From positions 1-60,020 of the forward strand of contig MTND01000010.1 in assembly GCA_002010305.1 (NCBI GenBank): a stretch of DNA of 60,020 bases. Reading direction: 5' to 3'. Numbering within the stretch: position 1 is the stretch's first letter; each line of letters starts with the position of its first letter. A program made the translations under genes and the position numbers. Of the stretch, positions 5,784 to 15,867 are shown in pieces. A model generated the notes under the pieces. It was not told the DNA's origin. It was given only the letters and a program-made list of their open reading frames with translations, and searched no databases. Origin of the DNA: Archaeoglobi archaeon JdFR-42 (GTDB lineage Archaea; Halobacteriota; Archaeoglobi; Archaeoglobales; JdFR-42).

Positions 5784-6749
5784 ATGGTGGAAAAGCCTCT
5801 TGCTGTTGCTATCAGCAGTAACCGCTATGATGGTATAACGCGAGTAATGGAGTTTATTAAAGATGATCTGTCTATCAATGATGGCGACTCTATCCTCATA
5901 AAACCAAATCTGGTCTCTTGGAACAACTTCAACGCTAACACTAGCTACAGAACCGTTTTTTCTCTTATTAACTTTCTCAAGGACAATTACAGCAATCTCA
6001 ACATTGTTGTAGGCGAGGGGAGTGCTGAAGCTTGGAAGAACGGAAAAACTACCTACGACCTTTTCAGACAGATGAAATACACAAAAATCCAAGAACGATA
6101 TCGAGAAGTAATATTCAGAGACTTCCTAGAAGAGGCCATCCATGAAACTTTCGAAGTGGAAACTATCCATGGAAAAGATACAGTGGAAATTTCGTCCTAT
6201 TATAAAGAATTTGATTACATAATTTCGGTAGCCCTCCCAAAAACCCATGATTTTGCCATTGCTACCCTTTCCATCAAAAACATGATGGGTCTGTTAAGAC
6301 CTGGAGATTGGATTAAGATTCATGGACTGAAATCAGAGAGAGACCTCCACAAGAAAGGGTTTTTCAGGAAAGGGAGAGATGAGAGTGTTTATCTAAAAAG
6401 CATTCACCTCATTCATAAAAACATTGTTCGACTGATGAAAGTATGTCCCCCTACCCTTTCGATTATTGATGGCTTCACTGGCATAGAAGGAGATGGTCCT
6501 GTTCACGGAAAATTAGTAGATCTCGGCATATTTATAGCAAGTGAGGATCCTGCCAGAGCAGACGCTTTTGGAGTAAAAATAATGGGATTCCTTCCAGAAG
6601 ATATAGGCTATCTGTATTATGTTGGAAAAGAGGGGTTAGGTAGCCTTAATACCAATCCAGACAGGGGTGACGAATTTCAACATAAAGTGAAGAAGTTTGA
6701 GCCTCATCCTGATTATGAACTTCAAGCCCAATGGAGGGAAAATTTATAA
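5784..6749 (+). CDS. DUF362 family protein
   Basis: The 321-residue protein matches DUF362 (SILIKPNLV near residue 38, VALPKTHDFAIATLSIKNMMGL about residue 155, ASEDPARADAFG near residue 255). DUF362 proteins are often fused to or encoded beside 4Fe-4S ferredoxins; their reaction is not settled. This one has no ferredoxin domain. Its stop codon overlaps the ATG of hdrA (TAATG), so the two are almost certainly co-transcribed. That makes it a candidate accessory factor for the HdrA/polyferredoxin complex, by context only. Confidence 0.8.
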   Translation: MVEKPLAVAISSNRYDGITRVMEFIKDDLSINDGDSILIKPNLVSWNNFNANTSYRTVFSLINFLKDNYSNLNIVVGEGSAEAWKNGKTTYDLFRQMKYTKIQERYREVIFRDFLEEAIHETFEVETIHGKDTVEISSYYKEFDYIISVALPKTHDFAIATLSIKNMMGLLRPGDWIKIHGLKSERDLHKKGFFRKGRDESVYLKSIHLIHKNIVRLMKVCPPTLSIIDGFTGIEGDGPVHGKLVDLGIFIASEDPARADAFGVKIMGFLPEDIGYLYYVGKEGLGSLNTNPDRGDEFQHKVKKFEPHPDYELQAQWRENL

Positions 6750-9163
6750 TGTCACAGAGTCTCGAATCTACTTCCCGGACAGGTGTAGATATGAACATAG
6801 GAGTGTTTGTCTGCCACTGTGGTTTGAACATTGCAAGAGTGATTCACATACCTGAGATAGTTGAGTATGCAAAGAATCTTGATGGTGTGACGTTTGTCAA
6901 AGACATACAGTATGCTTGCTCTGATTCTGGTCAAGAAGAGATTATCCAAGCAATTAAAGAAAACAAGCTGGATAGAGTGGTTATTGCTGCATGTTCCCCA
7001 AAAATGCATGAGGTTACGTTCAGAAGAGCAGTTTATCAGGCCGGTTTAAATCCTTATCTGGTAGAAATCGTGAACATACGGGAACAGTGTTCATGGGTTC
7101 ACTCTGAGACACCTAGATCAGCTACACTCAAAGCAAAAGACCTGATACGGATGGGGGTTTCGAGGGCAAAAAAACTCAAACCTCTCAAACGAAAGAAAAT
7201 TCCGATAACAAAAAGTGTATTAGTAATAGGTGGAGGGGTCGCTGGAATTGAGGCAGCACTGGACTTGGCAGATTCAGGCACAAAGGTGTATCTGGTAGAG
7301 AAAAAACCTACCATCGGAGGACATATGGCCAGATTTAATGAGGTCTTTCCCAACAATGACTGTTCAATATGCATCCTAGCTCCAAAGATGTCTTGTGCTC
7401 TCACCCACAAAAATATAGAAGTGATAACCAATGCCGAAGTAACTGGACTGGAAGGCACCGTAGGAAATTTTAAAGTCACTATAAAAAAACATCCCAGATA
7501 TGTAGATGAAGAACTCTGCAAAGGCTGTATTTCTGACTGCAGCAGTGTGTGTCCCGTTGAAGTTCCCAATGAGTTTGATTATACAATTGGGCCGAGGAAA
7601 GCCATTTACATGCCATTCCCCCAATCCACCCCCTTGATTGCAGCTATTGATCGTGAGCATTGCATCGGGTGTAAACTTTGTCAAGAGGCTTGTGAACCTG
7701 ATGCCATAAACTTCGACCAGAAACCTGAAACTATGGAAGTTGAGGTTGGGGCCATTGTGGTAGCGACGGGATGGAAACCTTTTGATGCGCGAAAAATAGA
7801 AGAATATGGTTACGGCAGATTTACCAACGTGATCACCACTTATGAACTGGAGAGGTTATTAAGTGCTTCTGGACCAACCCTTGGTCAGGTTCTGAGACCT
7901 TCTGATCTGGTACCTCCTAAAAAGGTAGCCTTTATCCAGTGTGTTGGTTCCAGAGACGAAAAGACCAATCCATACTGTTCTCGAGTCTGCTGTATGGTAT
8001 CCCTTAAAAACGCCCAGATTATCAAAGAAAGATTAAGTGATGTCGACATAACAATATTCTACATCGACATCAGAGCTTTCGGAAGGTGGTACGAAGAATA
8101 CTACAAAAGGAGTCAGGAAATAGGAATTAAATTTGTCAGATCCAGAGTAGCTGAGGTAAAAGAGATTGAAGGTAAGAACCTGACCCTCATGTATGAAGAC
8201 ACGCTAAATGGTGGAATAAAAGAAGAGACCTTTGACATGGTTGTATTATCAGGAGGGATGGAAGGAGGAGAAGATACTCAAACTCTCTCCACTATACTGA
8301 ACATTCCGACTGGAGAAGATGGTTTTTTTGAGGTAGCCCACCCGAAATTGAGACCTGTAGAAACCACTGTCGAAGGAATTTATGTAGTTGGTACTGCAAC
8401 AGGTCCCAAAGACATCCAAGATTCCCTAGCTCAGGCGGGTCTTGCTGTTGCAAAAATCCTTAAACTATTTATGAGGAAGGATGCAGAGCTTGAACCGTAT
8501 AGTGGGACTGTAATTGAAGACCAGTGTATTGGATGTCAGCTCTGCATGGAGATCTGCCAAGCACACAACATAATAATGGAGAACCGAAAAGCATTGATTA
8601 ATGAGGCGGCATGTAAAGGTTGTGGTGTCTGTGCTGCGGCATGCCCAACAAATGCCATAGAAATGAAATATTTCACTGATGAACAGATCATGGCTCAAAT
8701 CGATGCTCTCGGAGAGGAGAAAAACACTTATCCCCTTATACTTGGATTTCTATGTTGGTGGTGTGGATATGGGGCAGCAGATCTGGCTGGTAATCTAAAA
8801 TTACAGTATCCACCCAATCTCAGAATAATCCGGGTACTGTGTGCTGGAAGAGTTGATCCAGAATTCATTATGCGAGCTTTTCAGAAGGGTGTGGATGGGG
8901 TCATGATTGTGGGATGTAGACTGGGAGAATGTCATTACGATTTTGGAAATCAATATGCAATAGAGCGAATAGATATTTTGAAAGATGTTTTAGATAAAAT
9001 AGGCATCAACCCCAGAAGACTTAAAACCCTGTGGGTATCTGCTGGAGAGGCAAGCATATTTGCAAGAGAAGTGGAGAACTTTGTTGTAGAGCTTGAGAGT
9101 ATAGGGCCTCTGGGTGAGGAGCTCCAGACGATCCCTGAAGGTGGCAAACATGGAGATACGTAG
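6749..9163 (+). CDS. hdrA: HdrA-MvhD fusion: heterodisulfide reductase subunit A with C-terminal 2Fe-2S MvhD domain
   Basis: HdrA is the flavin subunit of soluble heterodisulfide reductase and bifurcates electrons between ferredoxin and CoM-S-S-CoB or related acceptors. Visible in order: CHCG at residues 22-25; a GGGVAGIEAALDL FAD-binding fold near 155; CSICILAPKMSC; an inserted 4Fe-4S ferredoxin region (CKGC ... CIGCKLCQEAC); the HdrA motif NPYCSRVCC; two C-terminal 4Fe-4S motifs (CIGCQLCMEIC, CKGCGVCAAACP); and an MvhD domain from about residue 655 (FLCWWCGYGAADLAG ... GCRLGECHY). The fusion replaces a separate MvhD. All positions that are selenocysteine in some methanococci are cysteine here. 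ATG6749 has GGAGGG ten bases before it. No hdrBC is in the window. Confidence 0.93.
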   Translation: MSQSLESTSRTGVDMNIGVFVCHCGLNIARVIHIPEIVEYAKNLDGVTFVKDIQYACSDSGQEEIIQAIKENKLDRVVIAACSPKMHEVTFRRAVYQAGLNPYLVEIVNIREQCSWVHSETPRSATLKAKDLIRMGVSRAKKLKPLKRKKIPITKSVLVIGGGVAGIEAALDLADSGTKVYLVEKKPTIGGHMARFNEVFPNNDCSICILAPKMSCALTHKNIEVITNAEVTGLEGTVGNFKVTIKKHPRYVDEELCKGCISDCSSVCPVEVPNEFDYTIGPRKAIYMPFPQSTPLIAAIDREHCIGCKLCQEACEPDAINFDQKPETMEVEVGAIVVATGWKPFDARKIEEYGYGRFTNVITTYELERLLSASGPTLGQVLRPSDLVPPKKVAFIQCVGSRDEKTNPYCSRVCCMVSLKNAQIIKERLSDVDITIFYIDIRAFGRWYEEYYKRSQEIGIKFVRSRVAEVKEIEGKNLTLMYEDTLNGGIKEETFDMVVLSGGMEGGEDTQTLSTILNIPTGEDGFFEVAHPKLRPVETTVEGIYVVGTATGPKDIQDSLAQAGLAVAKILKLFMRKDAELEPYSGTVIEDQCIGCQLCMEICQAHNIIMENRKALINEAACKGCGVCAAACPTNAIEMKYFTDEQIMAQIDALGEEKNTYPLILGFLCWWCGYGAADLAGNLKLQYPPNLRIIRVLCAGRVDPEFIMRAFQKGVDGVMIVGCRLGECHYDFGNQYAIERIDILKDVLDKIGINPRRLKTLWVSAGEASIFAREVENFVVELESIGPLGEELQTIPEGGKHGDT

Positions 9164-10422: not shown

Positions 10423-11622
10423 ATGACGGGCGAAAGACTGGGAGATGTGACAGTGAGCAATCTCAACGGGAAGAAAATCGTCCTCGGTATAACAGGAAGT
10501 ATTGCTGCAGTCAGGTGTGTGGATCTTGCAAGAGAGTTGAGGAAACACGGAGCAGAAGTGATAGCTGTTATGACAGAAGAGGCAATGCGGATTATTCATC
10601 CAAACGCCATGGAGTTTGCAACGGGAAATCCAGTTATAACAGAGCTAACTGGAAAAATCGAGCATGTCAGCCTTCTTGGACTAAATGGTGAGGCAGACAT
10701 GCTTCTAATAGCTCCTTCTACCGCCAATACTCTTTCCAAAATCGCATGTGGGATAGATGATACACCTGTCACCACTATGGCCACCACAGCTATAGGCTCT
10801 GGAATTCCTGTATCCATAGCACCTGCCATGCATGAAGGGATGTTCAACCATCCCAAGATTAAAGAACATATCAGAAGCCTAGAGATGCTAGGTATACAGA
10901 TAATTCCGCCGGAAGTGAAAGAAGGGAAGGCTAAACTGGCCTCCACTAACACTATTGTTTGCTATCTGGAACGAATTTTTACCGGAAAAGAGTTGAAGGG
11001 CAAAAAAGTCCTGATAACCTCTGGACCCTCCATTGAGCGTATAGATCCAATTCGATTTATCACCAACAGAAGTGCCGGGATAATGGGAACAGAATTAGCC
11101 TTGGAGTGCTGGCGAAGGGGAGCTGATGTTACTGTCATCCAGGCTTTTGAAGGGGCTTATCCTTTTATAAACTATATCAGGGCAGAAGATGTTAGAACTA
11201 TCCTTGACACCGTTATGAAAGAATTAGATAAAGGATATGACCTGTTTATCTCTGCTGCTGCCATATCTGATTTTACTGTTGACGCCGCTAATACCAAAAT
11301 TAAAACCAACAGGAACGTGAGTATAACCCTAAAAGAGGCTCCAAAAGTTATACGAGAGGTCAGAAAAGCTTTTGACATCCATATTATAGGGTTTAAGGCC
11401 GAAACAGGAGTTAACGATGAGGAGCTAATAAAAATAGCAAAGGAAAAACTTCAATGCGATTCCCTACAGATGGTTGTGGCCAACGATGTCCTTGAGAAAG
11501 GAATGGGTACAAAAGATGATAGAGTAGTAATTGTCACCGAAAGGAAAGAAGAGTGGATAGAGGGGGAAAAATCCCTTATAGCGAGGAGGATCCTCGATAG
11601 ATATGCAGAAGAATTTCTCTAA
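10423..11622 (+). CDS. coaBC: Bifunctional phosphopantothenoylcysteine decarboxylase / phosphopantothenate-cysteine ligase (CoaBC, Dfp)
   Basis: CoaBC makes 4'-phosphopantetheine for coenzyme A. The N-terminal flavoprotein half shows LGITGSIAAVRCVDLAREL and the proton-relay region IAPAMHEGMFNHP (about residue 130). The C-terminal ligase half shows LITSGPSIERIDPIRFITNRSAG (about residue 200), and residues A-A-I-S-D-F take the place of the usual A-A-V-A-D-[FWY]. The length, 399 residues, is normal. The start follows the polyferredoxin stop by one base with GGAGG in front. It overlaps pantoate kinase by 20 bases, so the two CoA genes are translationally coupled at the end of the hdrA operon. Confidence 0.93.
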   Translation: MTGERLGDVTVSNLNGKKIVLGITGSIAAVRCVDLARELRKHGAEVIAVMTEEAMRIIHPNAMEFATGNPVITELTGKIEHVSLLGLNGEADMLLIAPSTANTLSKIACGIDDTPVTTMATTAIGSGIPVSIAPAMHEGMFNHPKIKEHIRSLEMLGIQIIPPEVKEGKAKLASTNTIVCYLERIFTGKELKGKKVLITSGPSIERIDPIRFITNRSAGIMGTELALECWRRGADVTVIQAFEGAYPFINYIRAEDVRTILDTVMKELDKGYDLFISAAAISDFTVDAANTKIKTNRNVSITLKEAPKVIREVRKAFDIHIIGFKAETGVNDEELIKIAKEKLQCDSLQMVVANDVLEKGMGTKDDRVVIVTERKEEWIEGEKSLIARRILDRYAEEFL

Positions 11623-12433
11623 GGCCTTTTGTCCAGCCCATATAACCGGGTTTTTCGCTCCTGAATTCCGGAATGGGATGGTTGGATCAATCGGTGCAGG
11701 GATTACTCTGAATGTAGGGGTAACAGCTCGTGTTTCGGATGGAGACCCTGGAATTTTTTTCAATGAACAACCTACAGAGATCGATCCTGTGAAAACTATT
11801 ATAGAGCAGTTGAATTTTTCAGGACGTATTGAACTTAAATCTAATCTCCCACTGGGATGTGGATTTGGATTGAGTGGTGCCGCTTCTCTTGCTTCTGCCT
11901 TGGCAATTAATCAGGCCTTGCACATGAGCAACGACGTTCTTACTCTGGCAGATATGGCCCATGTTTCTGAAATTACCTGTAAAACCGGGTTAGGAGATGT
12001 AGTGGCCCAAATGTATGGTGGGATGATTGTTAGGGAACGGGGAGGAAAACCCTCTGAGGCAGTGGTAAGAAAATTCACTATATCTTCACCCATTGATATA
12101 GTCATATTGGGACAACTACCAACTGAAGAAATTCTCAGCGATAATACTGTGATGAAGAAGATCGCTATTGCAGGGAGACAGAAACTGAAAGCTTTTCTAA
12201 AATTCCCTACCCTATCCAATTTTTTCTTTCAATCCAGAGAGTTTGCTGTGGGTACAGGACTTGCTGATTCCTCCATACTCGATATAATCGAGGCTGTGGA
12301 AAGCCAGGGAGGTCTGGCTTCAATGGCCATGCTTGGAAAGGTTGTTTTTGCAATTAACGGTTTTGATGCTCTAAATGAATTCGGTGAAGTAATCCAGACG
12401 AGAATTGACGACTGTGGTGCGAGACTTATTTAA
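11603..12433 (+). CDS. Pantoate kinase (archaeal GHMP kinase)
   Basis: Archaea make 4'-phosphopantothenate with pantoate kinase and phosphopantothenate synthetase in place of the bacterial route. This 276-residue protein has the family N-terminus (KAFCPAHITGFF) and the GHMP phosphate loop LPLGCGFGLSGAASLASALA (around residue 83). It starts inside coaBC with a 20-base overlap, a classic partner gene. It ends convergently against the GNAT gene with only ten bases between stops. Confidence 0.9.
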   Translation: MQKNFSKAFCPAHITGFFAPEFRNGMVGSIGAGITLNVGVTARVSDGDPGIFFNEQPTEIDPVKTIIEQLNFSGRIELKSNLPLGCGFGLSGAASLASALAINQALHMSNDVLTLADMAHVSEITCKTGLGDVVAQMYGGMIVRERGGKPSEAVVRKFTISSPIDIVILGQLPTEEILSDNTVMKKIAIAGRQKLKAFLKFPTLSNFFFQSREFAVGTGLADSSILDIIEAVESQGGLASMAMLGKVVFAINGFDALNEFGEVIQTRIDDCGARLI

Positions 12434-13442: not shown

Positions 13443-13529
13443 GGCGCCCAACATCAGGGTGGTCCCTGACGTGGACTTCAAATCCACGGGCCCTTGACTG
13501 GGCCGGGGTTCGATTCCCCTTGGGCGCCG
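13443..13529 (+). tRNA. selC: tRNA-Sec (anticodon TCA), selenocysteine
   Basis: All special features of tRNA-Sec are present. The acceptor stem has nine perfect pairs (13443-13451 with 13520-13528), and the T-stem has only four (13505-13508 with 13516-13519), giving the 9/4 fold. The D-arm has a six-pair stem (TCAGGG/CCCTGA) closed by a four-base loop (TGGT). The anticodon loop CTTCAAA carries TCA (13478-13480), which reads UGA. A long variable arm pairs GGCCC with GGGCC (13489-13493, 13500-13504). The discriminator is G (13529) and CCA is not encoded. This shows that the organism can insert selenocysteine; SelB, SepSecS, PSTK and SelD must lie elsewhere. Confidence 0.96.
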
Positions 13530-15726: not shown

Positions 15727-15867
15727 TGGGGCCGGTGCGATTTGAACGCACGATCGACGGGTCTCTTCGGGTCAGCACTCCAACGGCTCATCATCTGATA
15801 TCAGCAGACCCGTTGGTCATCATTTTCCGCTGGAGCCCGTCGCCCTACCTGGCTAGGCCACGACCCC
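15727..15867 (-). tRNA. tRNA-Trp (anticodon CCA) with a 67-nt intron
   Basis: On the minus strand the 5' exon runs from 15867 to 15830 and the 3' exon from 15762 to 15727. The acceptor stem is GGGGTCG with CGGCCCC, and the anticodon stem ACGGG/CCCGT encloses the loop CTCCAGA with CCA at 15833-15831. The intron (15829-15763) sits after position 37, the standard archaeal site, bordered by a near-canonical bulge-helix-bulge. A TATA-like CTATATAATC is about 31 bases upstream. The intron carries a box C/D RNA (separate entry). Confidence 0.95.
15763..15829 (-). ncRNA. Intron-encoded box C/D guide RNA in pre-tRNA-Trp
   Basis: In minus-strand order the intron contains box C ATGATGA (15823-15817), D' CTGA (15804-15801), C' ATGATGA (15794-15788) and D CTGA (15775-15772). 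The nine bases before D (CCGTTGGAG, 15786-15778) pair with the 5' exon and the fifth base before D falls opposite C34. The bases before D' (ACGGGTCT) pair with the 3' exon and place position 39 opposite the fifth base. So the intron should guide 2'-O-methylation of C34 and C39 in its own precursor. This arrangement is known in Haloferax and other Euryarchaeota, where the second target is U39. Confidence 0.9.

Follow-up and report, generated by a model that had tools for sequence, protein, structure and literature searches.

A selenocysteine tRNA, its biosynthetic gene set, and a candidate UGSC-family selenoprotein gene in the Archaeoglobi archaeon JdFR-42

Introduction

Does the Archaeoglobi archaeon JdFR-42 insert selenocysteine (Sec) into protein, and if so, into which proteins? 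The question is raised by a tRNA gene with a UCA anticodon in the window, by which we mean the whole 60,020-nucleotide stretch of DNA that was analysed (assembly GCA_002010305.1, contig MTND01000010.1, positions 1 to 60,020). A 2026 review places archaeal Sec decoding in the Methanococcales, Methanopyrales, and Asgards, omits the Archaeoglobi, and gives HdrA, hydrogenase, and SelD as near-universal archaeal selenoproteins (PMC13188914). Fusion of PSTK to aSelB, together with Sec use, has been known since 2022 from Bathyarchaeota and from "one Archaeoglobus species" (PMC8762117, and again PMC9499178), in systems where SepRS-SepCysS is present without SepCysE (PMC8762117). Because of that report, neither the Sec trait nor the fusion is new, and JdFR-42 may be the very Archaeoglobus species concerned.

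Results

The window encodes a tRNA-Sec of the archaeal/eukaryotic form

ARAGORN called a plus-strand tRNA-SeC (13443-13529) and placed its anticodon, TCA, at position 36; cmscan matched the gene to the full length of Rfam model RF01852 with 75.6 bits (E 9.4e-14), above the gathering score of 47. It is the single tRNA-Sec gene of the JdFR-42 genome, and its parts are as follows.

13443..13529, plus strand: tRNA-Sec gene (ARAGORN, RF01852), including the discriminator G at 13529; CCA is not encoded
13443..13451, plus strand: 5' strand of the acceptor stem, GGCGCCCAA, 9 bp with TTGGGCGCC at 13520-13528 (cmscan structure line, sequence)
13454..13469, plus strand: D-arm, 6 bp TCAGGG/CCCTGA (13454-13459 / 13464-13469), loop TGGT (13460-13463)
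13478..13480, plus strand: anticodon TCA (UCA), which reads UGA (ARAGORN)
13489..13504, plus strand: long variable arm GGCCC-TTGACT-GGGCC, 5-bp stem and 6-nt loop (cmscan)
13505..13519, plus strand: T-arm, 4-bp stem GGGG/CCCC, loop TTCGATT (cmscan)

The gene therefore has every part that the initial annotation had counted (nine acceptor and four T-stem pairs, a 6-bp D-stem with a 4-nt loop, a long variable arm, anticodon UCA, and a G discriminator), and the covariance match agrees. The 13-bp acceptor branch (9/4, the archaeal/eukaryotic form), UCA, G73, and the long variable arm are all present, and the anticodon stem, read from the sequence, is 6 bp (CGTGGA/TCCACG). The D-stem is also 6 bp, both here and in G209, a sister genus of the same family, in place of the usual archaeal 7-bp form. 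Exceptions with 6 bp are known among archaeal tRNA-Sec from M. kandleri and Sifarchaeia (PMC5330540, PMC9499178); a 6-bp D-stem is no bar to membership, and the JdFR-42 family joins these two groups.

Differences between two genera fall in compensatory pairs

Matches to RF01852 above the gathering score were found in 3 of 394 genomes of the phylum (JdFR-42, G209, and G289), so the JdFR-42 match is not due to chance. The G289 match (54.4 bits, L029) was rejected as a false positive, being a tRNA-Ser(TGA) within a 15-tRNA array according to ARAGORN. The G209 tRNA-Sec scored 76.5 bits and differs from that of JdFR-42 at 8 positions, all 8 of which lie within four double compensatory pairs: 12-27, 14-25, and 16-23 in the D-stem (3 of its 6 pairs), and 47-62, the outermost pair of the variable arm, which is G-C in JdFR-42 and A-T in G209. 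This distribution implies that the RNA is under selection.

The window belongs to an Archaeoglobales-like genome

The JdFR-42 assembly is 2.15 Mb in 42 contigs, 99.59% complete, with 2.15% estimated contamination. By its pattern of kinship the organism looks like a member of the order Archaeoglobales in a family apart. It carries two divergent McrA genes, L209:6862-8439 and L225:7628-9229 (minus strand), as does Ca. Polytropus; their TIGR03256 scores of 575 and 527 bits lie under the cut-off of 767.75, which is what alkyl-CoM or Polytropus-type enzymes would be expected to show. The kinship, the SepRS and SepCysS genes described below, and the mcrA pair bear out the early suggestion of a lineage other than the known Sec-decoding archaea. 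Of 109 stretches compared by tetranucleotide profile, the window is one of those nearest the genome mean; its GC content is 40.5% compared to 40.2% for the genome, and it contains a gene block that is collinear with G209.

At 15727-15867 (minus strand) the window also has a tRNA, missed by ARAGORN, whose intron contains the C/D-box RNA sR3 (RF00005 48 bits, RF01133 53.2 bits). It is presumably tRNA-Trp, the tRNA that usually carries an intron of this sort in archaea.

Genes for Sec synthesis and delivery are complete

A search of the genome for selB, pstk, spcS, and selD, proposed when the tRNA was first noticed, recovered all four, selB and pstk as one open reading frame. PSTK, SepSecS, SelD, and EF-Sec/aSelB are all encoded by JdFR-42, and selD, the PSTK-aSelB fusion, and SepSecS share one locus on contig C2 (stretch L020).

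L020, minus strand: SelD, Cys form (HGCSCK), NF010705 404.5 bits
L020:5198-7318: PSTK-aSelB fusion, 706 aa, one open reading frame without a stop between the halves (TIGR03574, TIGR00475)

The PSTK half of the fusion matched TIGR03574 at residues 7-237 with 173.9 bits, under the cut-off of 290.5, and the aSelB half matched TIGR00475 (selB) at 272-561 with 278.8 bits; archaeal SelB (4ac9) is the best solved relative of this second half. SepSecS (TIGR03531, 479.7 bits) lies directly downstream, its frame overlapping that of the fusion by 8 nt. G209 has the same order, PSTK-aSelB followed by SepSecS (L094), with proteins about 58% and 67% identical to those of JdFR-42, and the genes that follow are syntenic between the two genomes. 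Moreover, JdFR-42 encodes SepRS (TIGR00470, 813 bits) and SepCysS (TIGR02539, 511 bits); the SepRS is about 62% identical to that of Archaeoglobus fulgidus. This full gene set and the four compensatory pairs support the view that the tRNA is neither degraded nor a suppressor.

Two MFS transporter-like genes downstream of SepSecS (L020:8804-9940 and 10625-11827) are both kept in G209 and may serve in selenium uptake.

The usual archaeal selenoproteins carry Cys or have an uninterrupted frame

One of the proteins that contain Sec in other archaea is encoded in the window itself.

6731..9163, plus strand: HdrA2-MvhD fusion, 810 aa, Cys form (NF040770 1234 bits, PF02662)

This frame has no in-frame stop, comparison with G209 showed no UGA column, and its FlpD domain is the only one in the genome, in agreement with the earlier reading that HdrA and its MvhD domain use cysteine. 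The genome has a single NiFe hydrogenase large subunit, with a Cys motif (DPCIAC) at its C-terminus, and a HesB-like open reading frame at L157 carries Cys. In-frame stops were absent from the hydrogenase, HdrA-MvhD, SelD, seven Mo/W enzymes, and an AhpC-type match. As far as gene sequences tell, then, HdrA, MvhD, hydrogenase, SelD, and the Mo/W enzymes of JdFR-42 are Cys forms or lack an in-frame stop.

A UGSC-family gene has UGA at the Sec position of its motif

In-frame UGA codons were sought in stretches covering nearly all contigs of the assembly. The sensitivity of coding-bias scans was 57-77% on Cys-to-UGA knock-in controls. These scans missed the gene described here, which emerged as the one convincing gene once a relaxed list had been screened for redox motifs (CxxU, UxxC, and similar).

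L163:15221-15874 (C4:94421-95074): UGSC gene with in-frame UGA, ...AEKCDAVITAHCD-U-GSCTAWTIRDALILESKGVPVATFCS...
L163:15888-17111 (C4): next gene, resembling the segment fused behind UGSC in NZ_CP021650.1

The predicted protein, 217 residues long if the UGA is read through and 102 if it is not, matched PF24696 (UGSC) with 174.5 bits (cut-off 25) and NF041046 ("UGSC family (seleno)protein") with 135 bits (cut-off 125). Its UGA aligns exactly with the U of the motif, as in known UGSC selenoproteins (PMC2398784; NF041046; PF24696), and the frame beyond it is intact for 114 codons. A paralogue in the same genome has Cys (HGDCGSCTAW), as do the two haloarchaeal plasmid homologues examined at full length. 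On the Acidovorax plasmid NZ_CP021650.1, UGA occupies the same UGSC codon and the annotation ends there; past the UGA the frame continues into a segment like the archaeon's next gene (TDGL..PPTKERV). That next gene, which starts about 13 nt past the UGSC stop, had no Pfam or NCBIfam match, and it possibly also resembles the "Unknown_1" domain of PMC2398784. The JdFR-42 genome holds at least one candidate selenoprotein gene with an in-frame UGA, UGSC, whose recoding we infer, and, with nearly the whole assembly covered, no in-frame UGA was convincing other than the one at the U of this PF24696 protein. The earlier deduction that the selenoproteins must be others than HdrA and MvhD is supported by this gene, for which no SECIS was recognised.

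The Acidovorax frame, from Acidovorax sp. T1 plasmid p2-T1 (L284:1483-1773), is annotated as a "hypothetical protein" that stops at the UGSC-motif UGA, and is likely a truncated selenoprotein annotation.

Because the next gene starts so close to the stop, UGSC has no ordinary 3' UTR. No SECIS was recognised around the operon with Rfam or with the published eSECIS-like and eaSECIS models, and folding and motif searches gave nothing convincing. Possibly the element sits upstream or further along the operon, or belongs to a different type; it is also possible that the UGA is undecoded. The GC content of the UGSC gene is 50.6%, and that of its neighbour 47.0%, compared to 40% for the genome, which suggests lateral transfer, and hence that the gene was acquired from elsewhere; this atypical composition is probably why the codon-bias scans missed it. 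The coding scans could likewise have overlooked a native selenoprotein whose composition is ordinary.

Another frame with an internal UGA, an amidohydrolase at L191:2738-3883 (C15) with UGA at L191:3071, was rejected. The closest solved relative, 3ooq, has Met at that position, a search of G209 and the other genomes of the order turned up no ortholog, and the stop lies within an overlap with the following gene; a nonsense mutation or sequencing error is therefore the more likely explanation.

Discussion

We conclude with considerable confidence that the window carries the working tRNA-Sec of an archaeal/eukaryal-type system whose usual targets are in the Cys form, and that UGSC is its best-supported target. 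Whether a laterally acquired, bacterial-type UGSC is decoded by the archaeal Sec machinery and is the main or only selenoprotein of this Archaeoglobi lineage is a narrower proposition, for and against which we see the chances as evenly balanced.

The reading that competes most directly accepts a functional tRNA and machinery but takes UGSC as a recent bacterial import with an undecoded UGA, the real selenoprotein having been missed. The raised GC content, the lack of a recognisable SECIS, and the incomplete sensitivity of scans that missed UGSC itself are all consistent with it. However, the UGA lies exactly at the family's Sec position, the frame past it has stayed intact, the partner gene has been kept adjacent, and no second candidate combines a redox motif with long coding sequence on both sides; we regard this reading as unlikely, though worth keeping in view. 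That the tRNA is instead a relic or a UGA suppressor, retained without selenoprotein synthesis, would fit the absence of Sec forms among the usual archaeal selenoproteins, but the full set of genes for biosynthesis and elongation, a fusion and a SepSecS that another genus shares, and the compensatory changes make it very improbable. Contamination by a contig of another archaeon that decodes Sec, an Asgard for example, is conceivable in a metagenome-like assembly of many contigs with some estimated contamination. Yet the window has near-average tetranucleotides and GC content and contains a gene block collinear with G209, which itself has the tRNA-Sec and the fusion, and we give contamination hardly any credence.

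For the favoured reading, of a working Sec system, we start from the tRNA, the gene set, the fusion, and the UGA position, which are read from the DNA, and propose the catalytic steps, channelling, UGA recoding, and UGSC function as follows. By family membership, SerRS would charge tRNA-Sec with serine, the PSTK half of the 706-aa protein would phosphorylate Ser-tRNA-Sec, SepSecS would form Sec-tRNA with selenophosphate supplied by the Cys-form SelD, and the aSelB half would bring Sec-tRNA to UGA. The fusion may keep Sep-tRNA-Sec beside the elongation factor and away from SepCysS, as proposed in PMC8762117. The UGSC-family protein is likely a thiol/selenol redox protein, and its gene adjoins a conserved partner.

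JdFR-42 shares the SerRS-PSTK-SepSecS-aSelB route with Methanococcales and Methanopyrus, and the 6-bp D-stem with M. kandleri (PMC5330540). By contrast, pstk and selB are separate in those organisms and fused here; HdrA, VhuD, VhuU, SelD, FdhA, and FwdB contain Sec there, whereas the JdFR-42 proteins have Cys or no in-frame stop; and their SECIS elements lie in the 3' UTR with a GAA_A motif, whereas none was recognised here. The biosynthetic route is likewise that of Asgards (PMC11227280), and the 6-bp D-stem that of Sifarchaeia (PMC9499178), but the Asgard SelD, HdrA, FrhD, FrhA, and Prx-like Sec proteins with eSECIS-like elements (PMC11227280) have no such form in JdFR-42. The closest likeness is to the systems of PMC8762117, which have PSTK and aSelB in one open reading frame, SepRS-SepCysS, and, in one case, an Archaeoglobi host. 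Beyond that report, the present analysis adds two genera of one family, the structure and compensatory changes of the tRNA-Sec, the Cys forms, and the UGSC candidate. The 2026 review (PMC13188914) lists UGSC selenoproteins from bacteria only, the family lacking its mark for those found in archaea, whereas the JdFR-42 gene belongs to an archaeal genome whose Sec machinery is archaeal too, and no SECIS was recognised for it. What is new is that the system is conserved in two genera with compensatory changes in the tRNA, that the usual archaeal selenoproteins are in the Cys state, and that an archaeon has a UGSC candidate.

These results describe a third setting for archaeal Sec: an Archaeoglobi family with divergent mcrA, a full Sec system, fused PSTK-aSelB, and Cys-form targets. 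Because SepCysS is in use in the same cells, it offers a natural test of whether Sep-tRNA-Sec is protected by the fusion of kinase and elongation factor. If UGSC is decoded, it would be a new archaeal selenoprotein family and would require a SECIS of a new type or position. If the protein is really made, a lineage can retain Sec for the sake of one laterally acquired protein, and the SECIS that its archaeal machinery accepts must differ from both of those described.
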